From a virus, in IMG/VR virus record IMGVR_UViG_3300037502_002762, positions 1 through 20,519 of that record: DNA of 20,519 nt; one strand, written 5' to 3'. Each line of letters starts with the position of its first letter. The first letter of the stretch is position 1. This document shows positions 6,788 to 19,586 of this stretch, piece by piece. The notes beneath the pieces are model-generated. The model was not told the origin of the DNA and ran no database searches. It was given only the letters and a program-made list of their open reading frames with translations. The position numbers were made by a program, and so were the translations under genes.

Positions 6788-7746
6788 CAGTACATCTCCG
6801 CAGAAACAAAGGCAATGGTCATGATGACCGATGCAATCGCCGGTCTAGTAGGACTCGTATTAGCCGGGTAATACTCCAAAAACGCCCCCGATCGATCCGA
6901 CCACCACGCCATCTCTAAATACTCAGCCGTCGGGTCATTTACAGTGAAAATTCCATTAATCGACGGGACAATGTGCGACCAAATGCTCCCACTTTTGCGA
7001 GCGGCCAAGTCAAAGCGTGTGTTGCTCAGGGGATAGTTGACGCCGGTGTTCTTGGCCCAAATCTCAAACTCCCCCGTGGCATTGTCTTGATTGGATACCT
7101 GTGTGCGGAAAGTCACAAGATATTGGCCTGAATAATCAAACATGATCTTCGAGGCCCGTGATCCGTTGATCGTGATGCTTCCTACTTCTTGCGATGTAGA
7201 TACAGTGTATACACCAACCCCGCCTGTCGTGCCACTGACCTGGGCCACGATGCGGGTTCCAGCAGTCACCCCAGTCCCGGTAATGGTCATGCCTACCAAG
7301 ATTGGGCCAGAGCTGACCGCCGAAACCGTAAGGACTGTACCTGCCCCCGGCGGAGTGCCATCATCAATTGTCCCCGTGAACACCGCCGTATGGCTCGCAA
7401 CCTTGATGCCGTACTCGAAAATTGGGCTATCAAAAGTGATAATGTTCTCGGAGGTGGTTCCGACGTTTGCCTGATCTTGCTCAGACATCAACATCGCATA
7501 GGGCAACAAAATGCCCGTGCTCGCCTGAAACCCTCTCACCGGTCCGGCAAAACCACCTCCGGCTGACCCTCCACCGCCCCCGAACCACGAAGCGGCAGCC
7601 CCAACGTTTTGGTCCTGCGTCGAGGTATAAGTGCTGTTGAGCTGCAAAACAATCTGCTCGAGCGATCGAACGAGCTGGTCAAACTGCTGGGCGCTGTATT
7701 CTGCTGGCGCCGCGTTGGGCAGGCGGACGTTGAATATCTTGCTCAT
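6787..7746 (-). CDS. C1q/TNF-like structural protein with inserted beta domain, 319 aa
   Basis: The N-terminus (residues 1-45) contains a predicted helix, [19 protein letters not shown], likely a trimerisation coil, followed by a Gly-rich linker (55-66). Residues about 100-319 have the strand pattern of a jelly-roll C1q-like domain: [18 protein letters not shown] (199-216), [17 protein letters not shown], and a final [19 protein letters not shown]. Residues about 121-193 look like a separate beta domain ([18 protein letters not shown], then [16 protein letters not shown]) inserted between early strands of that jelly roll. The start overlaps the nozzle gene by four bases (ATGA). It is probably a surface-exposed or tail-associated trimer; the fold assignment is by pattern only. 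Confidence 0.75.
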
Positions 7747-9605
7747 CGCAACCCGTCAGGCTGAATATCTACCCGTAGTGTCCCGTAGCGCCAGAAGGTA
7801 TCTACCTCGTCGCTTTCAATCTTCAAAGAAATCTGCCGTCCACGCGCCCTGGTGTCCACCTTTTGAGTGGTCGGGGTCACAAGATACGGGTCCAAGGAGC
7901 TTGGCACGGCAGTCGATTGCGGATAAGGCCGCAGCCGTATCTGCACCTCCAAATTGCCTTGCTGATTCTTAAAGTCCGGAATAAAGCGCTTCATGAAGAT
8001 CATGCTGTCGCCATCGCCAATGTCAAAGTACCCTGACTGAATGTAGGCCGTGATCGGTGATCCGTTGGCATTGACTCCATCTTCTTGGTTGTACAAGAAA
8101 GACCGACCGGGCGTGAGACCGTAAATCGTGCTAATCGTCGTGGCGGTGCTGTTTTCGTTGTATTCCGAGGCAACCGGCTTTTCAAACGTGCCAATGTCAG
8201 ACCACGCGGTTCGAGCCAAACTGCCAATGCTCCAGACGTTTTCCAAGTAGTTGTAGCTCACAAACCGGTCAATATAGTCCGCAGTAAATGACGGGTAAAA
8301 CCACGTCACCTCGTTGAACTGCGAGTTGACACCGGCAAAGACTTTCGCCCCTTGGACAAGATTAATGTCCTTGAAGACGTAGTCTTGAACCGTACAGGGC
8401 ATCTTTTTGACCGTACCGTCGAAGACGTAAAAGGCCTCAGTGCCCATCCAAAAGGCCAAGCCGTTGACGTCCACGGCTGCATGCGGGCCAATACAGCCGC
8501 AGTTGGCGCCCAGTTGCTGAAATCCAAACGTATACGGAGGCCCAACATACTGCATGGCATGCAAAGAGGTATCAGTGAAGATCAAAATCTGACCACGTGA
8601 CCTGATTGCGGAAACGATGGTGCTTCCGTCCGTGAGCCGTTGTCCGCCAGCCGTGTTGGTTGCAGACTCGGTAAATGTATTGATGTCCTCTTGATTTGAG
8701 AAGCGGACAAACATCGGATCTTGCGTAGTTGGTGTGCCAATGACAGATTCCGAGCCAAAGCAGACTAGATGCCTGTCTGGGGTAGATACCAACGCAAAGG
8801 TGTTTTTTGTCGGAGCGCCGCTAATGGCTATGGCCCGTGTTCCGGTGCCCCCGCTCAAGTCCCAGACGTAGATTGCGCCATTGCAAATCTGGGCGATTAG
8901 GTCTTCACCAAAGGTGTCCAACTGCCACACTCGGGTGTTAAGCGCCGTCACCCCCGCAGGGCGTGGAGTGCCCCAAGTAGAAAGGCCCCAGGTTCCTGCC
9001 CCCCAGCCAAAGTCAAAGACGCTGACATTTGAGCCTACGTTGATTTGATAAGTGCCCACGACCGCTGCACCGCCGTTTCCTGAATCAGAACTATTGGCGG
9101 CGACAGGGGCTTGGATGGTGTAAGAGTTAGCGTTGACGACGTTGAGGATCTCATACTCAGAATTGAGAATGCCTGCTGTGATAACGCCACCAAGAGAGAC
9201 GGCGCCGCTGAACCTAACGAAGTCGCCAACAATGGCGCCATGCCCGGTGTCCGTGACCGTCAGAATGTTGCTACCAGTAGTGGCAGCAAAGGTTACGTCC
9301 CCGGCGCCTGTCGTGGCCCGGATAGGAGTGATGTCAAAGTACTGTCCGCCGTTGTAGACGTAGAGTTTTTTGGTCGTCCCAACAGCCAGATAGGGCGAAC
9401 CGTCCAAGGCATTCCATGTCTGGATGTCCGTAATTTGGCCAACAAGAGCCGTCAGGTTGCCGTTAAAGCTGGTCCAACCGCCTAGTTTTTCTGGCAGGCC
9501 GTAGCGGAATCGAATGTAGTCGCCATCGATCCAGCCGCCCTCAGCACCGTACTCGGTGTTCTGCTTGTCAATCCCAGGCTTGAGGGCAAGGCGAAAGTAG
9601 GCCAT
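7743..9605 (-). CDS. Tail nozzle / packaged-DNA stabilisation protein (P22 gp10-like), 620 aa
   Basis: The N-terminus ([20 protein letters not shown]) and then [14 protein letters not shown] are typical of a family of podovirus tail proteins related to the P22 gp10 stabilisation/nozzle protein. Propeller-like repeats follow: [14 protein letters not shown] (73-86), [17 protein letters not shown] (234-250), [16 protein letters not shown] (340-355) and [13 protein letters not shown] (385-397). Residues about 100-190 form a separate Gly/Thr-rich beta insertion ([20 protein letters not shown]). The C-terminal 150 residues are beta-rich. P22 gp10 closes the tail tube after DNA packaging, and the size here is somewhat above that family's usual length because of the insertion. 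It starts directly after the zinc-ribbon gene with no gap. Confidence 0.65.
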
Positions 9606-11817: not shown

Positions 11818-12386
11818 CCTTTAATCTCCAACAAAGTAATTGTTGCAACATCATTGGCGGCATTTGTAGTAACACTATTACCAAGTCTACTGTGAAATTG
11901 AAGTTTGTAAGTTGTTGACGAGGTTGTGTTTGGAGAATCTAAAACAGAAAGCATTAAAGCGGCTCTTCGAGTAAGTGGAGACCCCGAAAACCCTGCAAAA
12001 TAAAGGTGGTTTACTGCTTGAGTAATTGATGTTGCGCCCCTAAGAACCTGAAATGTAATTGCATTTTCAGAGGTATCAACATTAGAAACTGATGGATATA
12101 CCAAAACCAATACTTTGTTAGATGCGCTAGATGGGGTTATAGATGCAGACAAACCAACATCTACAAAGGACACAGAAGTTGTAGAAGTTCCCGTTCCCAG
12201 AGTTCCTGTTACTACCTGAATCACACTACCCGCTGGCAACTGCGAAGCAGTAATTGATGATGCGCTTGTTACTATCGTCCCGGTGTTATCTGGGAGCGTA
12301 AGTGTGCGGTTTGTCGAGGTGGCGGGACTCTCAATCGTGAAAGTAGCGGTTCCGCTTGCCGCACCCGCTAGGGCTATTTTCGACAT
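11814..12386 (-). CDS. Tail fibre / surface beta protein, 190 aa
   Basis: The N-terminus SKIALAGAASGTATFTIESP and then TNRTLTLPDNTGTIVT is a widespread attachment segment of phage fibre proteins. The rest is strand-rich: SVSFVDVGLSASITPSS, NKVLVLVYPSVSNVDTSENA, and an end NDVATITLLEIKG. It is short for a fibre and may be a modular tip or a side protein that assembles with its neighbours. The DNA is AT-rich here (19 of 60 bases are G or C at 12061-12120). Its ATG overlaps the stop of the 58-aa gene by one base (TAATG). Receptor binding is inferred. Confidence 0.75.
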   Translation of the reverse strand: MSKIALAGAASGTATFTIESPATSTNRTLTLPDNTGTIVTSASSITASQLPAGSVIQVVTGTLGTGTSTTSVSFVDVGLSASITPSSASNKVLVLVYPSVSNVDTSENAITFQVLRGATSITQAVNHLYFAGFSGSPLTRRAALMLSVLDSPNTTSSTTYKLQFHSRLGNSVTTNAANDVATITLLEIKG

Positions 12387-12562
12387 TATGGTGCTCCTTG
12401 TTCGTCTGCTGGTTCTGGGACACCGCCTTCAGCGACCCACTTCAAATACTCTTGATAGTCTGTGTTGTCATCAAAAGGCTTAAACGCAACACTTGATCCA
12501 TCGTCATTCAATTTAACGATGTTTGTGTCTCCACGATAACCAAGCACAATTTTGTAATTCAT
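12386..12562 (-). CDS. Small protein next to fibre genes, 58 aa
   Basis: The ATG at 12562 follows the upstream fibre stop by one base and is preceded by CGGAG at eight-base spacing. The frame ends in TAA at 12388-12386, which overlaps the next ATG. The protein is MNYKIVLGYRGDTNIVKLND and then DGSSVAFKPFDDNTDYQEY, ending LKWVAEGGVPEPADEQGAP. The pattern 'DNTDYQEYLKWVAEGG' with a proline/acidic end is often seen in small proteins or C-terminal segments linked to phage fibres, so a fibre-assembly or capping role is plausible. The gene is short and could be overlooked. Tight spacing on both sides and a ribosome site support it being real. Confidence 0.75.
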   Translation of the reverse strand: MNYKIVLGYRGDTNIVKLNDDGSSVAFKPFDDNTDYQEYLKWVAEGGVPEPADEQGAP

Positions 12563-12584
12563 TTTATAACTCCGATGTTATAAA
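12563..12584 (-). promoter_or_regulatory. Perfect hairpin presenting the ribosome-binding site of the 58-aa gene
   Basis: On the mRNA strand, arms TTTATAAC and GTTATAAA (8 bp, perfect) enclose the loop ATCGGA, and the start codon follows immediately. The GGAG ribosome site is in the loop and the first base of the 3' arm. The stop codon of the upstream fibre gene is inside the stem. The stem is AT-rich and weak, so ribosomes finishing the upstream gene would open it. Translational coupling is inferred. Confidence 0.55.
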
Positions 12585-13691
12585 CGCTTTGTTAGCACTA
12601 CTGCTGACATAAAATGCGCTTCCTTGCCCAACAGTTAAACCAGACGCTACTGTTACCCCAATTACAGGACAACGAACACTTGGAGTGTCCAATACTACTG
12701 CGGTGGCAGTGACGGATGATCCTGCTCCATTTAATGCGAAATAGTTACCGACCGAACTAGAAAGAACTAAAGACTGTCCCGAAGCGGATCGCATGGTTAC
12801 AGGGACATTTATTGGGGTGAGTGAAAGTGTAGTTAAAACACTATAACCACCACCAGCCCAATCAGAATTAGTTGACCCAACATCCCGACCAATCGCTTGA
12901 TAACAGTACCTTTGACACAACGCCAACTCAGTCCCATAAGGTCTGCGCTCAAACGGCGTGGCGACAGAGCCTGCTTCGAGTTGGACGCCTGTGATGTAGA
13001 AGGTGGCTCCGTTGGTTCCGACTACGCTGGTTGCGCCTGTGGCTGAAAGATAATTTGCACCCGCCCATGCACCAGCAGTTCCGCTTAAAGTAGAGCCAAC
13101 GCCAAGACCAAACAGAAGCACCAGCCCTGCGCCGTTATTTGTAACCCATGTTCCAGTCGTATCACCCGCAATAGCGACAGTCTTTTGTTCCCAAGTATTA
13201 GATGCGGAAACGCTATAGGTAAAAGGATATGAACGGTTAGCCGCACTATTCTTCACCGCACCGCCGAAAGTCCCTGTCAGCGAAGAACGAACCCAAAAAG
13301 ATAATGTTACGGACTTAGCGTTTGCAGTTCCCCAATTTAAATCTGCAACATTAAAACCTTCAATCGTCTGGCCAGTCATAAAGTAATCAGACGCCCCAAT
13401 TGAAACCGAAGATGCAACGGTCAGTCCGAGATAGTTAGTAAACCCAGCAGGGGGCGTAATGCTCCCAGCATTTTGTTGGATCGTAAATTTGCTCGCTTGA
13501 GATGCGTCAAAAAACCAGCGGTCGACTGTATATTGAAAACCCGTAGGAGTCACCGCCGCACCAGCATTCCTCTGGTCAATCCTCATGTCACCATTCAATA
13601 TCCGATTCTTAAAACTGAAGGCTCCACCAGAAAATTGGTTTGTGCTGTCTGGGAATGTGACTCCGTCACTGCCCGAAATAATCATTGTCAT
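12564..13691 (-). CDS. Receptor-binding tail fibre with carbohydrate-binding-like domain, 375 aa
   Basis: A short N-terminal attachment segment (SGSDGVTFPDSTNQ) leads into a widely distributed phage domain: NRILNGDMRIDQRNAGAAVT, YTVDRWFFDASQASKFTIQQ, VTLSFWVRSSLTGTFGGAVK, TWEQKTVAIAGDTTGTWVTN and GATFYITGVQLEAGSVATPF. This pattern is the CBM-like jelly roll of tail fibres, in which FYITGVQLE is the last strand. ELALCQRYCYQ marks its end. About 110 further residues form a variable strand-rich C-terminal tip. The start codon overlaps the homing endonuclease stop (ATGA). DNA is AT-rich relative to the structural genes (23 of 60 G+C at 13321-13380). It probably contacts a surface glycan of the host. 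Confidence 0.85.
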   Translation of the reverse strand: MTMIISGSDGVTFPDSTNQFSGGAFSFKNRILNGDMRIDQRNAGAAVTPTGFQYTVDRWFFDASQASKFTIQQNAGSITPPAGFTNYLGLTVASSVSIGASDYFMTGQTIEGFNVADLNWGTANAKSVTLSFWVRSSLTGTFGGAVKNSAANRSYPFTYSVSASNTWEQKTVAIAGDTTGTWVTNNGAGLVLLFGLGVGSTLSGTAGAWAGANYLSATGATSVVGTNGATFYITGVQLEAGSVATPFERRPYGTELALCQRYCYQAIGRDVGSTNSDWAGGGYSVLTTLSLTPINVPVTMRSASGQSLVLSSSVGNYFALNGAGSSVTATAVVLDTPSVRCPVIGVTVASGLTVGQGSAFYVSSSANKAFITSEL

Positions 13692-14344
13692 GCTGCTAAC
13701 TCCTTACGTTGTTTGTGCCAAGCTTTAGTGGCCTCGCTGCGTAGTTGACGCTCTTCAACAGACTGAATTCTTCCTTTGCGGGATGCAGACATTTTAGCCC
13801 TTGTTTCGGCAGACACAACCCTACTTTTGTTCATAGCAATGATGTCAGCACTCCTGCGTTTCTGAGCCTCGCTCATCTTTTTCCGAGTCTCTTCTGAAGC
13901 TTTTTTACCCAAGTTGGGGCCAACCCTTCCAGTCATCACTTCGCTTAGCTTTTGTTTGCCAGACTCCGGGTACTTCTTGCCCTTCATTGGCGAAGGTAGG
14001 CTAAGTCCTTTTCTCCAGCCACGGTGGCCCATTAACGACAAACTATGTTTACGTCGACGCTCTTCAGTCCATTTATGTTCGTCAGACCCACCAGCTTCGA
14101 TGTTGTACCCGTTGGGGGTAATCGAATTAAAAACTGAAATCCAAAAATGCTCAAAAAAGTTTAGCGTTTTTCTGCTGAGAATATTATTGGTGATAACTTC
14201 ATACGAAAAGTTTTCAAACCCGTGCTTCTTGTACGCAAGCCTCAATAACTTCCCATGCCCACGCCTGTTACGCAACGTAATTGTTTGCCCCACGTACTGT
14301 TTTCCAGTGAGGTTATTGGTAACAAGGTAGACATGCCCATTCAT
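13688..14344 (-). CDS. Free-standing GIY-YIG homing endonuclease with NUMOD3 repeats, 218 aa
   Basis: The ATG at 14344 overlaps the stop of the fibre gene as ATGA and has AAAGGTGG eight bases upstream; a GTG at 14356 is less likely. The catalytic domain shows VYLVTN (5-10) and QYVGQT (16-21) as the GIY...YIG pair, an Arg cluster at 25-28, AYKKHGFENFSYEVI (38-51), the catalytic Glu in FFEHFWI (E65) and NGYNIEAGG (79-87). NUMOD3-type DNA-binding motifs follow (MKGKKYPESGKQKLSE, GKKASEETRKKMSEA, SAETRAKMSASRKG). It cuts a homing site in DNA lacking the gene and promotes its own spread. It is not inside an intron: the coding sequences on both sides are complete. AT-rich composition (19 of 60 G+C at 14161-14220) fits recent arrival. 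Confidence 0.93.
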   Translation of the reverse strand: MNGHVYLVTNNLTGKQYVGQTITLRNRRGHGKLLRLAYKKHGFENFSYEVITNNILSRKTLNFFEHFWISVFNSITPNGYNIEAGGSDEHKWTEERRRKHSLSLMGHRGWRKGLSLPSPMKGKKYPESGKQKLSEVMTGRVGPNLGKKASEETRKKMSEAQKRRSADIIAMNKSRVVSAETRAKMSASRKGRIQSVEERQLRSEATKAWHKQRKELAA

Positions 14345-15111
14345 AAAATCAACCACCTTTGTCCGCTACTGACTGTAATAGTCACCGACGTGTCCACGGT
14401 AATTGGCCCCACGCTCAACCCATTCTCACCCGCCGCTATTGTGTAGCTGGCTGTAGCCGTGTCTTTATTAGTCAGTATCGCACCACCTGCCTGAGCACCA
14501 GAGATACCGCCCCAAGCACTGCCGTCATAACCCTCGAACTGATCGGTGTCGTCGTTGAAGCGGAACATACCCTTGGCAGGCGTAGGCCGTTGAGCCTGTG
14601 TTCCAACCGGCATGGTCACTGCACCCGTGCTGCTAAATACAGGATTGCCCGTGACCGTCAAAGCCGACAAGGTCGCCGTACCACCCGCCAAATTCACGAA
14701 ATCAAACGCCACCACCACATTCGTGCCGTCCGCATACACATGCATCTTGCGGCCATTGGGCACGGTCACCCCGGTCCCCGCCGAGGTCTTCACAACAATA
14801 CTCTGGCCCCCAGTCGTATTGTTCTCTATTAGGTACTGCTTCTCAATAGTCGGGACAATCAAATTACGGGTCGCGGTCAACGAGCCCGTAGAAGTCACAT
14901 TCAGGATCAGATTCCGGAAAGTCTGAGCCGCATTGCTGTCCGTGTAGCCAAGCGTCAAATCCGCATCCGTGGGGAAGTTGGCCGCAGCACGACCAGTAAT
15001 CGCCTCTTCAATGGCCGTGCCCAGGTTCGTGTTGGTTGTTACACCCCACGTTCCCGACTGCTCACCATTTCCAATGAGCTCGATTTTCAGCGAACTGTAA
15101 GTACTCGCCAT
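14341..15111 (-). CDS. Tail fibre / surface structural protein, 256 aa
   Basis: The N-terminus ASTYSSLKIELIGNGEQSGT, then WGVTTNTNLGTAIEEAITGR, is a very common start of environmental phage fibre-like proteins. Strand-rich repeats follow, then a fibre segment QAQRPTPAKGMFRFNDDTDQ with EGYDGSAWGGI. The last 42 residues (ending TITVSSGQRWLIL) are 28/42 identical to the C-terminus of the 153-aa protein at 16350-16811, so this is a shared tip or assembly module. AAGGA lies upstream of the ATG at 15111. The homing endonuclease starts inside its stop codon. Confidence 0.8.
   Translation of the reverse strand: MASTYSSLKIELIGNGEQSGTWGVTTNTNLGTAIEEAITGRAAANFPTDADLTLGYTDSNAAQTFRNLILNVTSTGSLTATRNLIVPTIEKQYLIENNTTGGQSIVVKTSAGTGVTVPNGRKMHVYADGTNVVVAFDFVNLAGGTATLSALTVTGNPVFSSTGAVTMPVGTQAQRPTPAKGMFRFNDDTDQFEGYDGSAWGGISGAQAGGAILTNKDTATASYTIAAGENGLSVGPITVDTSVTITVSSGQRWLIL
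14344..14469 (-). repeat. Duplicated 42-residue C-terminal tip module, copy 2
   Basis: These 42 codons of the 256-aa fibre gene encode the same module as 16353-16478: SYTIAAGENGLSVGPITV followed by TITVSSGQRWLIL. The two are 28/42 identical at protein level, while the DNA has diverged more, so the copies are not recent. This copy borders the homing endonuclease. Confidence 0.85.
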
Positions 15112-15121
15112 CTTCTATCCT

Positions 15122-16345
15122 TTAAGCCGCTATGGGCACCCAAGTGACGGTCTGGGAGTCATTGACAACCACCCAATTTCCCGTCTGTCCATCATTAACA
15201 TTTTGCCAGTTAGGCACTTGATTGTCATTAATTGTGGTCCAAATCGTGACCGAACCCACCCGACCAACCGCCTGAACCCCCGTAACCCCAACACGAGCCC
15301 CAGCTCCAACAGTGACAGGGCTAACAGCACCCGTTCCCTGAACTCCCGTAACATTGACCGTGACAGGAATGCTGGCATACGCCTGACCAATAAATCCATC
15401 GCCCTGTACCCCAGTAACGGCAACAACCGCACTTTGGATGACAATAACATTGCCAACCTGCCCATCGCCCTGAACGCCCGTGACCGGTACCGAAGCCGAT
15501 CCAGTAATAGCAGTCTGGCCAATGGCCCCAGCGGCAAAAACACCCGTAACCGCAACAACCGCGGCAGCCTGGACGGCAACATCTCCAACTTGGCCGGTTC
15601 CGAGGACTCCGGTGACGGGGACGACTGCGTCCCCTGTCTGGGCGGTTTGTCCGATGAATCCGGTTGCGCTGACCCCGGTAACGGTGACACTTGCCCCACC
15701 AGAGACGGCAACGGTCCCAATAGCACCGCTACCTGAGACCCCGGTGACGAGGACGACTGCGGTTCCGGTGACGGCAACGTCTCCGATGAATCCCGAACCT
15801 TGGACCCCGGTGACGGGCACAGTAGCGCCGGCAGTGACGTTAGCCTGACCGATGAATCCTGTCGCCGAGACTCCATCCACGGCGACCACTGCGGAGCCCG
15901 AAACAGCAACATCTCCAATTGCTCCGGTGCCTTGAACGCCGACAACGGCAACATCCGCTGACCCGACAACGGCAACCGTTCCAATCGCTCCGGTTGCTTC
16001 GACTCCTGTAACAGGAACATCTGCTCCCGCTTGAGCAACAACGTCTCCAATTGCCCCAGTTCCAGACACCCCGGTCGGAAAGACGTTTGCGGTACCGGTT
16101 TGTTGGGTTTGGCCAATAAATCCGGTGCCTTGTACGCCAGTGACAAGAACGGAGGCCGCCGCCGTAACTGCGACGGTGCCAACTGCTCCTGTTGCTTGAA
16201 CGCCTGTAACCGGTACATTTGCCGCTCCTGTTACCGCAACTGTTCCAACGGCCCCAACGCCCTGAACACCAGTAACTGAAACCTCAATCGAAGCAGACCC
16301 CAGGTCTGCAAACGGGGCTCCAGCAAACGGGGTAATCCCGAACAT
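15122..16345 (-). CDS. Repeat protein: 16 tandem 22-residue repeats plus Trp-repeat C-terminus, 407 aa
   Basis: Residues 1-18 (MFGITPFAGAPFADLGSA) are a recurrent phage N-terminus. Residues 19-368 are 16 repeats, 15 of exactly 22 residues and a final one of 20, built around VPVTGVQGTGAIGTVAV. The TGV and IG/VG positions are nearly invariant. Alternating small/hydrophobic residues suggest two or three short strands per repeat, as in a beta-solenoid or a fibrous trimer. Residues 369-407 are three 11-residue units of pattern W-x-x-[IV]-N-D-x-Q (WTTINDNQVPN, WQNVNDGQTGN, WVVVNDSQTVT). There are no catalytic motifs. It is very probably an elongated virion surface protein. A degenerate form of the same repeat occurs at 18915-19289. 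Confidence 0.88.
   Translation of the reverse strand: MFGITPFAGAPFADLGSASIEVSVTGVQGVGAVGTVAVTGAANVPVTGVQATGAVGTVAVTAAASVLVTGVQGTGFIGQTQQTGTANVFPTGVSGTGAIGDVVAQAGADVPVTGVEATGAIGTVAVVGSADVAVVGVQGTGAIGDVAVSGSAVVAVDGVSATGFIGQANVTAGATVPVTGVQGSGFIGDVAVTGTAVVLVTGVSGSGAIGTVAVSGGASVTVTGVSATGFIGQTAQTGDAVVPVTGVLGTGQVGDVAVQAAAVVAVTGVFAAGAIGQTAITGSASVPVTGVQGDGQVGNVIVIQSAVVAVTGVQGDGFIGQAYASIPVTVNVTGVQGTGAVSPVTVGAGARVGVTGVQAVGRVGSVTIWTTINDNQVPNWQNVNDGQTGNWVVVNDSQTVTWVPIAA
15125..15241 (-). repeat. Three 11-residue Trp repeats at the C-terminus of the repeat protein
   Basis: Codons 369-407 encode three tandem units with the pattern W-x-x-[IV]-N-D-x-Q-x-x-[NT], followed by WVPIAA. The unit is half the length of the 22-residue repeat before it, but its sequence is unrelated. 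Confidence 0.85.
15242..16291 (-). repeat. Tandem array of 66-bp (22-codon) repeats, 16 units
   Basis: Fifteen units of exactly 66 bases and a last unit of 60 encode the 22-residue repeat. Length is strictly kept although the DNA sequences have diverged. The period is a multiple of three, so other frames also stay open over much of the array; one such frame is open for 362 codons on the same strand but is a by-product. Confidence 0.92.
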
Positions 16346-16349
16346 GCCG

Positions 16350-16811
16350 TCACACTACCAGCCAGCGCTGGCCCGAACTAACCGTAATAGTGACTCCGCT
16401 TGCGACAGTCACAGGCCCCACCGATTGAGCGTTCGTGCCCGTTTCAATCGTGTAGCTTTCTGTGGCCGTCGTTGCGTTTACAACAAATGCACCAATCCCT
16501 CCCCCGCCACCAGTGATGGCACGTTCAGATGGATAAGTTACAAAAACGTCTTTACTTCCAGCCGCAAGATCAATTTTTGATCCAGTGCTGGACGAAAGAA
16601 CTGTATCCCTGGAAAGCGTAGTTCCAGAAGAGGTATACGTGCCAATGCCCACTTCCCACTGCGAACCACCAACGATGGTGTAGTAGGTAGTGTTTCCATT
16701 TCCAATGGCCGCAAAAGACTGATAACCAGTTGTGGCACCGGCAAGCGTGAGCGTACCGGTGCCAGTTGTGGTCGTGGTCTCTTTGACCCTGTCTTTAATT
16801 ACAAGGGCCAT
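16350..16811 (-). CDS. Tail-associated structural protein, 153 aa
   Basis: The protein begins MALVIKDRVKETTTTTGTGT and then LTLAGATTGYQSF, a widespread phage structural family that continues WEVGIGTYTSSGTTLSRDTV and KDVFVTYPSERAITG. A Gly stretch (GGGGGIG) links this to a C-terminal 42-residue module (112-153) shared with the 256-aa fibre gene at 14341-15111. It has AAGGTG six bases before the ATG. It lies directly upstream of the repeat protein, and the shared tip suggests that both proteins end in the same attachment or trimerisation element. Precise location in the virion is unknown. Confidence 0.8.
   Translation of the reverse strand: MALVIKDRVKETTTTTGTGTLTLAGATTGYQSFAAIGNGNTTYYTIVGGSQWEVGIGTYTSSGTTLSRDTVLSSSTGSKIDLAAGSKDVFVTYPSERAITGGGGGIGAFVVNATTATESYTIETGTNAQSVGPVTVASGVTITVSSGQRWLVV
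16353..16478 (-). repeat. Duplicated 42-residue C-terminal tip module, copy 1
   Basis: It encodes SYTIETGTNAQSVGPVTV followed by TITVSSGQRWLVV at the end of the 153-aa gene, matching 14344-14469 at 28/42 residues. Confidence 0.85.
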
Positions 16812-17545: not shown

Positions 17546-18247
17546 CTATGTCCTTAAGGCTTCTGGAGGCAGCAAAGGAGAGGTCTCCTCCGGCTCTTCA
17601 ATTTCAGAGTACTTTTTGGCTACAAAACGACCGTTTTCCAGCCCAACCACCAGGGGTTCGGCCAGCCGGTGATAGCCATAAAGCTTACTTTTGACGGGCT
17701 CGTTGGTGTCCAACAAGGAAGATTCTTGAGCAATCCCAACCTTGATCCCCCGGCTAATCGCTATAGATAGCAAGAACTCACAGTTAGCCCGCCCTGCCTC
17801 GGCAAAGTGGACATAGCCCTTGTACGAGAAATCGATCCCGTAGAGGTGGATTTCAGCCACTTTTGCTGCAATCGCAAAACCGATGGCGTAAGCCACAGTG
17901 TTGTTGAAGTACCCCGTGCGACAGTCGTTCATGACATCTTCCAGGGGGAACTCCACCAGCCCCGGGCATCGATCATCCAGCTCACAGGTGTAGATGGGTC
18001 CCTTATGCTCCTTGAGCACCTTGGACATGATGCCTGTCTGGCTGCCCGCATCCTCGGAATCCAAGAACCGACTGGCCGGATCCATCATAAACACCCGGTC
18101 GTGGTAGATGATCCCCGACATGCAGTTGATCGCCCAGACTTCATCAAAATCAAAAGAATGAGTCCTGGCCAGTATGTACTGACCGTGACTTCTTCCCATT
18201 GCGACTATTGCTACTTTCTTGCCTTCTAGGTTTGGTACTTGGCTCAT
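17546..18247 (-). CDS. Rossmann-like protein resembling MptE/DUF115 enzymes, 233 aa
   Basis: The N-terminal strand-loop KKVAIVAMGRSHGQYI (10-25) resembles the Gly-rich entry of MptE-like proteins (6-hydroxymethylpterin diphosphokinase-like) and DUF115 glycan-related proteins. A second hallmark is VAYAIGFAIAAKVAEIHLYG with IDFSY (118-142), the usual 'A-K-I-LxGxDxSY' strand and loop, followed by HFAEAGRANCEFLL. The length suits one domain. There is no signal peptide or membrane segment. It overlaps the adaptor gene by four bases, so it is made with the tail proteins. Relatives act on nucleotides, pterins or surface sugars; which reaction this one performs, if any, cannot be seen here. Confidence 0.65.
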   Translation of the reverse strand: MSQVPNLEGKKVAIVAMGRSHGQYILARTHSFDFDEVWAINCMSGIIYHDRVFMMDPASRFLDSEDAGSQTGIMSKVLKEHKGPIYTCELDDRCPGLVEFPLEDVMNDCRTGYFNNTVAYAIGFAIAAKVAEIHLYGIDFSYKGYVHFAEAGRANCEFLLSIAISRGIKVGIAQESSLLDTNEPVKSKLYGYHRLAEPLVVGLENGRFVAKKYSEIEEPEETSPLLPPEALRT

Positions 18248-18903
18248 GGGCCTGGACTCTCCGATTTTATGGGCAGACGAATCATTCCGTCTCTGTACTC
18301 GTCGCGTCTGCGTCTTCCTTGTTGCTCCACTCCAAGCCCTTGGATGGACTCTTTGTAAGCATTATTGAAATAAGCCAACATATCTGGTGGCCCTTTTGTG
18401 TAGCTGTAGGCTTGAATCAAACAGGCATACAGCAACGCCTCCGGGGCATTGTTGCTCACCCAGGTGGTCGTATTCGTGGAAGAAAGTTGGGCCGGGCGGT
18501 AGATGTAGCCAAGCTCGACCGCATAGGACGCCGCGGGAGTCGGTGCCACATAGAAGGTGTTTTGATCCCACACGGAGTAGTACTTGGGAATTCCGGTGTC
18601 CGTCCCATCTGGCCAGTACTCCTTCATAAAGGAAGTATCCCGGAAATCCAAGAAAACTTGGTCTCCACCAGCCGAAGTCAGCATCATGTAGCGGTGCGTC
18701 AAGATGTCAGTTGGGGCGGTCAAGAACTTGTTTCCTGACGTCAGAGAGCCTGCCACCTCGAGCTTGAAAACATCCAAGTCAATGTCACGAAGAATGCGAT
18801 TCTCCGCCATCGTGATGAAGGTATTGATCACCGAGTTGGAAAAGACGTTGCTGTCTACCTCGGTGTAGTTACGAATATTGGTTACAAGTTCGTCGTATGT
18901 CAT
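18244..18903 (-). CDS. Head-tail adaptor protein, SU10-type, 219 aa
   Basis: The N-terminus MTYDELVTNIRNYTEVDSNV, then SVINTFITMAENRILRDIDL, LTSGNKFLTAPTDIL, GIPKYYSVWDQNTFYVAPTP, YAVELGYIYRPAQL and NAPEALLYACLIQAYSYTKG reproduce, in order, the motifs of the phage SU10-type adaptor family. These proteins form a ring between portal and nozzle and initiate the tail tube. The length is typical. It overlaps the genes on both sides by four bases, which fits stoichiometric production of neck proteins. No abnormal features. Confidence 0.85.
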   Translation of the reverse strand: MTYDELVTNIRNYTEVDSNVFSNSVINTFITMAENRILRDIDLDVFKLEVAGSLTSGNKFLTAPTDILTHRYMMLTSAGGDQVFLDFRDTSFMKEYWPDGTDTGIPKYYSVWDQNTFYVAPTPAASYAVELGYIYRPAQLSSTNTTTWVSNNAPEALLYACLIQAYSYTKGPPDMLAYFNNAYKESIQGLGVEQQGRRRRDEYRDGMIRLPIKSESPGP

Positions 18904-19586
18904 GTTGTAGTCACCGATGGATCGCCTACGTCACCTGACCCCTCCACGCTTTGCGGGGTAAAGGACACGTCAGGCACAACAACCTCCCCAATACTACCAG
19001 ATCCGCTCACACTTGATAAGGGAACTGGCAGGACTAAGCTAACAGAAACAGGGTTGACCGAAGCCGTACTTCCCACGCCCGTTACGGCAACAGGAGCATT
19101 TCCTATAGTAGCTACGTTTCCAATGCCTCCAGAGCCTGAAGCGCTGCCAACAAACGGAATAATTACGGAGTTGCCCTCGGCAGTAACGCTTCCAATTTGA
19201 GCGCTAGCACTGACCCCTGCGGCCAAAACGACCCTAGCATGGCCGCGGATAAAGACATTTCCGATCTCTCCCACCCCATGAGCCGTATCTTGGCTCGGGT
19301 AAGGACGCATGTTGATTACGTTGTTGGCACTACCAACGCTCTGGAAGTAAGTAAATCCAGGCTGGCCAACATAGACATCTACCGGCTCAACCCGGTCAGG
19401 CCGGGGCTGAAGAAGTGCAACCGCATCTCCCCGATACCTTAGGGGCTCTAGTTGCGGTTCCTTGGGCTCGTAATCCTCTGGGCAGACCTTGAATCCGCGC
19501 CAGTTCTTCTTTAAGACGTTGTATGGATACCGCTGGCCGCAGTAGTCGCATAGACCATACGAGTATTTGCCGGTTGCGTAGGCCAT
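18900..19586 (-). CDS. Virion protein with CxxC N-terminal domain and degenerate 22-residue repeats, 228 aa
   Basis: Residues 7-40 (KYSYGLCDYCGQRYPYNVLK onward) contain C13-x2-C16 and C35, with D38 where a fourth zinc ligand would be. So metal binding is possible but incomplete by the usual four-Cys rule. Residues 40-84 (YEPKEPQLEP and RPDRVEPVDVYVGQPGFTYF) resemble a conserved segment of environmental phage proteins. Residues 100-224 are five to six loose copies of the 22-residue repeat found in the 407-aa protein (GVSASAQIGSV, GSASGSGGIGNV, VSGSGSIGEVVV). The gene sits between connector and adaptor, so a neck-associated surface protein is likely. AAATG context with a one-base gap from the previous gene. 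Confidence 0.75.
   Translation of the reverse strand: MAYATGKYSYGLCDYCGQRYPYNVLKKNWRGFKVCPEDYEPKEPQLEPLRYRGDAVALLQPRPDRVEPVDVYVGQPGFTYFQSVGSANNVINMRPYPSQDTAHGVGEIGNVFIRGHARVVLAAGVSASAQIGSVTAEGNSVIIPFVGSASGSGGIGNVATIGNAPVAVTGVGSTASVNPVSVSLVLPVPLSSVSGSGSIGEVVVPDVSFTPQSVEGSGDVGDPSVTTT
18915..19289 (-). repeat. Degenerate 22-residue repeats in the neck-region protein
   Basis: The IG/VG marker pairs fall at residues 108, 131, 155, 199 and 220, with one copy (near 177) lacking it, giving spacings of 21-24 residues. The copies carry GVxxS-x-x-IGxV like the 407-aa protein but have indels. Confidence 0.65.

Follow-up and report, generated by a model that had tools for sequence, protein, structure and literature searches.

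The described systems closest to the one reported here are SegF and SegG of phage T4, free-standing GIY-YIG homing endonuclease genes (HEGs) that stand beside the gene that is cut, with co-conversion of the flanks and exclusion of the markers of an HEG-less relative (PMC2988022). Our subject is an HEG paired with a tail-fibre gene in IMG/VR virus record IMGVR_UViG_3300037502_002762; the stretch analysed, positions 1 to 20,519, is the whole record and is called the window below. The targets of SegF and SegG are genes 56 and 32, not receptor-binding fibres, and the passages of PMC2988022 on which this comparison draws describe for them neither an amputated second copy of the target nor a hand-over of a ribosome-binding site. 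MobE of T4 and Aeh1, an HNH enzyme, resembles our case in its UAAUGA stop/start overlap, its translational coupling and the insertions that split the host gene nrdA (PMC2988022); it belongs to another nuclease family, and the split nrdA functions in two parts, while in our case a complete new start of the gene is supplied downstream. For the HEG islands of vibriophage ICP1 and others it has been proposed that HEGs mobilise the phage genes next to them (Barth, Dunham and Seed 2023, PMC10448857), but there the HEG-flanked regions exceed 10 kb (PMC10448857), while here one HEG would move one fibre gene start. With I-TevI the window HEG shares the catalytic domain family and matching Tyr, His, Glu and Asn positions; I-TevI is however an intron endonuclease, and the similarity is low. 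A further lead is the Allomyces mitochondrial orf360/atp6 hybrid, in which a GIY-YIG gene invades a gene and brings replacement coding sequence; that system is mitochondrial and replaces the 3' end of the gene, not the 5' end.

Set beside these systems, homing of the SegF/SegG type is of an already known kind, and what is new is a target of the receptor-binding fibre type, the strict coupling with the translation start of the fibre, the replacement of a 5' end that leaves stubs behind, and the spread over many fibre bodies. The literature library searched for homing endonucleases together with tail fiber/fibre yielded no report of such an HEG–fibre pair. Judging from the sequence comparisons below, the system is probably an intronless one that homes into fibre genes, and a cleavage-resistant fibre 5' end would travel with the HEG as one cassette. 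The features of the window that carry this reading are as follows.

13688-14344, minus strand: free-standing GIY-YIG/NUMOD3 homing-endonuclease-like gene (the HEG), 218 aa; ATG at 14344, TGA ending at 13688
14102-14338, minus strand: GIY-YIG catalytic domain, residues 3-81 (Pfam PF01541; profile matches to I-TevI 1LN0/1MK0, E 3e-5)
13871-13966, minus strand: NUMOD3 DNA-binding motif, best stretch residues 127-158 (Pfam PF07460, E 1.1e-11)
13700-13705, minus strand: AAGGAG, ribosome-binding site of the fibre gene, within the last HEG codons
13688-13691, minus strand: ATGA overlap of HEG stop and fibre start (from the sequence)
12564-13691, minus strand: partner tail-fibre gene of FKNRIING type, 375 aa (PHROG 4492 'tail fiber', E 1e-53, and relatives)
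13590-13613, minus strand: FKNRILNG motif of the partner fibre, TTT AAG AAT CGG ATA TTG AAT GGT; by sequence comparison the putative target block, recoded and presumably resistant

The window covers the structural-gene portion of a podovirus-like, freshwater-type phage. The 'stabilization protein' homologue encoded at 7743–9605 shares 74% identity with its counterpart in DSL-LC04, a 61.5-kb phage from Dishui Lake whose annotated fibre region has a gene set different from that of the window. The HEG is a separate reading frame without intron or intein, and Rfam gave no match to a group I intron or other intron RNA in the window. It matches PHROG 314 'homing endonuclease' (E 2e-34) and scores 23.3 bits for GIY-YIG (cut-off 22.6) and 44.9 bits for NUMOD3; among 35 family members the GIY-YIG domain is matched in 22 and NUMOD3 in all, at E<=0.001 for the former. 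It is the only HEG among the translated window reading frames of at least 60 aa, no search dedicated to further HEGs having been run, and the window holds no region of more than 10 kb between two HEGs that would make it an HEG island. The phage collection contained no close relative from a cultured phage (best full-length match ~32% identity), and the prokaryote genomes searched gave distant matches only.

Starting from the window HEG we gathered 63 distinct relatives, most of the HEG–fibre loci being retrieved by HEG queries alone. The clade to which the window HEG itself belongs was defined by the C-terminus [AQ]WH..R.., and 40 distinct members had readable downstream sequence. All 40 directly abut a complete tail-fibre gene of the FKNRIING type, with the motif 20–31 residues from the fibre start. 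The fibre ATG keeps the same frame offset in 39 of the 40, with an overlap of 1–19 nt with the HEG stop. Ahead of it the last HEG codons contain AAGGAG or AAGGA in every one, so that the end of the HEG serves the fibre as a ribosome-binding site that can move along. What stands to the left differs between loci: it is a ~55-aa gene joined by TAATG, an 83-aa gene joined by ATGA, or a fibre-type gene, the last, with an SG.RW end, in the window and also in the wider HEG family. The closest relatives of the window's upstream gene (87–95% identical, loci L146–L148) have neither the HEG nor the partner fibre; what comes after the upstream gene in these loci is TAAGGAGT and another fibre. The mobile unit is the HEG together with the 5' end of the downstream fibre, not an HEG neutrally dropped between two fibres.

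Alleles without the HEG are common. We found 15 different junctions of a small gene with a fibre, nine with the 83-aa gene, and 11 after relatives of the upstream gene. The clearest pair of states is seen with the 83-aa gene: in L286 and L294 it is followed by the stub MSNARELAEL..GMKNRIIK*, the HEG and a new complete fibre, while in L336, L342 and L362 the same gene and fibre start run on uninterrupted without an HEG. The DNA of the two groups is 79–91% identical and can be aligned up to ..CGCATCATCAA. In about 12 independent cases the HEG is preceded in this manner by the amputated start of a second fibre (L286/L294, L275, L279, L002–4, L238, L239, L257, L122, L272, L298, L009, L241 and L235, the last decayed), and each stub breaks 2–20 nt into the 24-nt motif. 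A double-strand break at that place would leave such a join of a broken fibre to an unrelated start codon, and all the joins fall within the same 24 bases. In L241 (2476-3129) the reading frame runs from the N-terminal stub of a fibre straight into the HEG as a fusion (MPYGQIQVDTVKDSLNNTLAPSSAV-LNAQVYL...).

The partner fibres of the HEG are altered at the very block in which the stubs end. We compared 37 HEG-linked with 91 HEG-less fibre genes after deduplication. The putative target block was altered in all 37 HEG-linked fibres, and the core AAYCGYATY was intact in none of them as against 70 of the 91 HEG-less ones (Fisher p 1.6e-17). Codon divergence between the groups peaked at the F, N, R, I and I codons of the motif (z 9-21) and was near zero from ~10 codons downstream. 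When HEG-linked fibres were paired with the HEG-less ones closest to them in the fibre body, 39% of the core bases differed compared with 12% downstream (n=35, Wilcoxon p 2.5e-7). The spelling adopted varies: AAY became TCA (N to S), CGY became AGA or AAA (R to Lys in the latter), and ATY became ATA, CTG or CTA (I to Leu in the last two), and the window fibre reads CGG ATA TTG. The motif Asn, invariant in the 91 HEG-less fibres, is replaced in some HEG-linked ones. At the first Ile codon of the motif, ATA was used in 18 of 33 HEG-linked fibres, three times its share within the same genes (17%, p 1.6e-6), and in none of 89 HEG-less fibres, in whose bodies it makes up 23% of Ile codons. Within single contigs whose stub reaches this codon (L286, L275, L279, L009, L272), the stub has ATC and the partner fibre ATA. 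An I-TevI-type CNNNG motif, with C at the second Ile codon and G from the Gly codon, occurred in 57 of 91 HEG-less and 8 of 37 HEG-linked fibres, which is suggestive only.

From these comparisons we infer cleavage, its site, resistance and the repair route along the following lines. In a co-infected cell the HEG enzyme would cut HEG-less fibre genes in the DNA encoding FKNRIING (core about AAYCGYATYATYAAYGG), the cut being expected inside or adjoining AACCGCATCATCAAYGG and in HEG-less DNA only; the donor would escape cutting through the recoded motif in its own fibre. The HEG-carrying genome would then serve as repair template. On the fibre (right) side, recombination could proceed through the conserved FKNRIINGxMxIDQRNAGAS or farther on, so that the fibre body is either kept or swapped, and on the left side, where there is no homology, the join would be illegitimate. 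The recipient would gain the HEG together with a new, complete start of the fibre gene and the ribosome-binding site belonging to it, its old fibre start being left as a stub or lost.

Fibres decide which bacteria a phage infects, and in many phage genomes no other part is exchanged as much. If the proposed scheme is true, a selfish nuclease forces fibre exchange, each transfer installing the nuclease, a re-spelled fibre start and often a new body. The chances seem to us about even that HEG–fibre pairs are widespread as 'fibre gene drives', nuclease genes coupled through translation signals to a receptor-binding gene in a spelling that resists cleavage. Such drives would rewrite the fibres of co-infecting phages and actively spread host-range modules through aquatic phage populations. 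The comparison provides a concrete target sequence that can be tested, together with natural and presumably cut-resistant versions of it.

On the fibre tree, HEG-linked bodies are dispersed (25 changes; shuffled mean 31.3), and recombination boundaries lie just behind the FKNRIING motif: L122 and L078, for example, are 60% identical at the motif and ~90% from 60 bases on. A side observation concerns the HEG-less FKNRIING fibres (L066-L145 and other loci), in which the motif DNA is unusually uniform and ATC is favoured at both Ile codons, ATC being the rarest Ile codon (16%) in the same genes. Fibre modules may use this uniform DNA as a common joint for recombination.

Another account is that the HEG entered once before a fibre and has since been a passenger, carried along by ordinary homologous exchange of fibre modules, the motif differences being inherited drift. 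The physical linkage of HEG and motif, the left neighbour that many copies have in common (TAATG after the ~55-aa gene), the fact that fibre modules recombine anyway and the somewhat higher AT content of HEG-linked N-termini would all fit. We nevertheless regard it as unlikely, since it does not provide for some 12 separate non-homologous joins of the HEG to fibres broken in one 24-nt motif, nor for several unrelated recodings, including loss of the Asn. The HEG is moreover under purifying selection (median dN/dS 0.23; 0.04–0.08 in close pairs). If the enzyme instead cut elsewhere, for instance in the upstream gene or deeper in the fibre, the stub breakpoints would mark only the onset of fibre homology and the recoding would stem from something else, be it expression, fibre folding or the like. 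Homologous exchange at the motif would then yield intact hybrid fibres and not a stub joined to an HEG start codon; the differences peak exactly at the motif and many of the recoding changes are synonymous, which makes this version quite improbable. It is barely conceivable that the GIY-YIG protein is a domesticated regulator, translated together with the fibre gene as its attenuator or chaperone, and no homing enzyme. The constant arrangement of ribosome-binding site and overlap at the fibre start would suit such a role, but many fibres of the same type do without an HEG, stubs and a patchy distribution are typical of mobile genes, and most active-site residues are kept.

Several observations weigh against the homing cassette as we propose it. 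Conservation of the catalytic residues, on which the first-pass annotation had staked its reading of the HEG, holds for most positions (Y17, E65 and N81 in 62/62 family members, Y6 in 61/62, H30 in 60/62; Y6/Y17/H30/E65/N81 align with Y6/Y17/H40/E75/N90 of I-TevI), but the 10-residue segment that bears the catalytic Arg27 of I-TevI is absent across the whole family, so the chemistry may differ. Position 27 of the family is R or K in 44 of 62 members and otherwise P, Q or others. The exact core is also missing from 21 of the 91 HEG-less fibres, and the N-termini of HEG-linked fibres are somewhat more AT-rich. Because HEG and motif lie ~100 bp apart and are linked, common descent inflates the recoding statistics, and much of the recoding could go back to inheritance of the cassette from a shared ancestor and not to repeated selection; with fibre bodies recombining, the codons farther downstream make a weak control. 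Repetition is indicated only by how diverse the spellings are, by how many stub events there are and by the contrast within contigs. On the fibre tree four independent pairs are strongly supported, of which three agree and none opposes, and this is not significant. Finally, the window has no stub and its nearest relatives have a different fibre set, so that the insertion event of the window copy itself cannot be reconstructed; its own empty site was not found, and equivalents only were obtained, in which relatives of the upstream gene are followed directly by such fibres (L312, L113, L327).

AT bias was considered separately as a cause of the recoding and was rejected: codon use in the fibre bodies is alike in both groups, and the motif has more ATA and AGA than the rest of the fibre in the genes concerned.

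The first-pass annotation had described the HEG as a mobile gene at a locus where fibres are exchanged, and had looked to relatives for an empty fibre junction. Both expectations are borne out, as HEG-less alleles exist. With such junctions plentiful and recombination boundaries behind the motif, its further suggestion that the HEG drives exchange of the fibre locus is plausible, with the correction that the unit includes the fibre 5' end. That the HEG interrupts no reading frame applies to the window, where both neighbours are complete, but not to other relatives, where a fibre gene is interrupted. The surroundings of the HEG comprise the following further features.

14341-14344, minus strand: ATGA overlap of upstream gene stop and HEG start (from the sequence)
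14353-14360, minus strand: AAAGGTGG, a possible weak ribosome-binding site of the HEG within the upstream gene (from the sequence)
14341-15111, minus strand: upstream fibre-type gene, 256 aa, complete, ending SGQRWLIL (shares tail-fibre and virion-protein PHROGs)
12386-12562, minus strand: 58-aa gene after the partner fibre; a similar gene follows the fibre in L122

The 4-base ATGA overlaps at both ends of the HEG, reported in the same annotation, are present. They had been called unusually neat for a mobile gene, yet they are ordinary: among the window's 23 gene junctions seven are exact 4-nt overlaps, in HEG-less relatives, too, the upstream gene meets the fibre at an ATGA or TAATG, and free-standing homing endonucleases of T4 are described as overlapping their neighbours, mobE by UAAUGA (PMC2988022). 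Nor is there support for the supposition that the overlap by itself implies high expression; the passages on T4 in that source present stop/start coupling as a likely limit on endonuclease translation (PMC2988022).

The upstream gene (14341-15111) and the gene at 16350-16811, both on the minus strand, are of fibre type and share a C-terminal module ...SVGPITV..GVTITVSSGQRWLxx, which in L263, L288, L291, L296 and L300 likewise ends the gene upstream of the HEG. The minus-strand genes at 15122-16345 and 18900-19586 encode proteins of repeated VTGVQGTGAIGTVAV-like units, with which the L146-L148 homologues align in several registers. At 17546-18247 (minus strand) a conserved 233-aa gene lies among tail genes and has a weak MptE-like (PF01973) match.

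A sister clade of HEGs, ending QWARQKGE (L263-L300, e.g. L277, L282 and L292), sits between two ~125-aa virion-type paralogues, and its members often start ATGGCAGGAACA (MAGT), like the neighbouring gene family. This is apparently the same start-proximal insertion in another gene family. No clear motif-like recoding was found around the AKAW codons of the partner gene (15 versus 115 genes), and the target of this clade may lie elsewhere. In the Manatee Spring podovirus (MW202481; L481:164-2550) an annotated HNH endonuclease gene stands just before two fibre genes, one of which has an FKNRIING-type motif with an intact core site; the nuclease family there differs from that of the GIY-YIG HEG.
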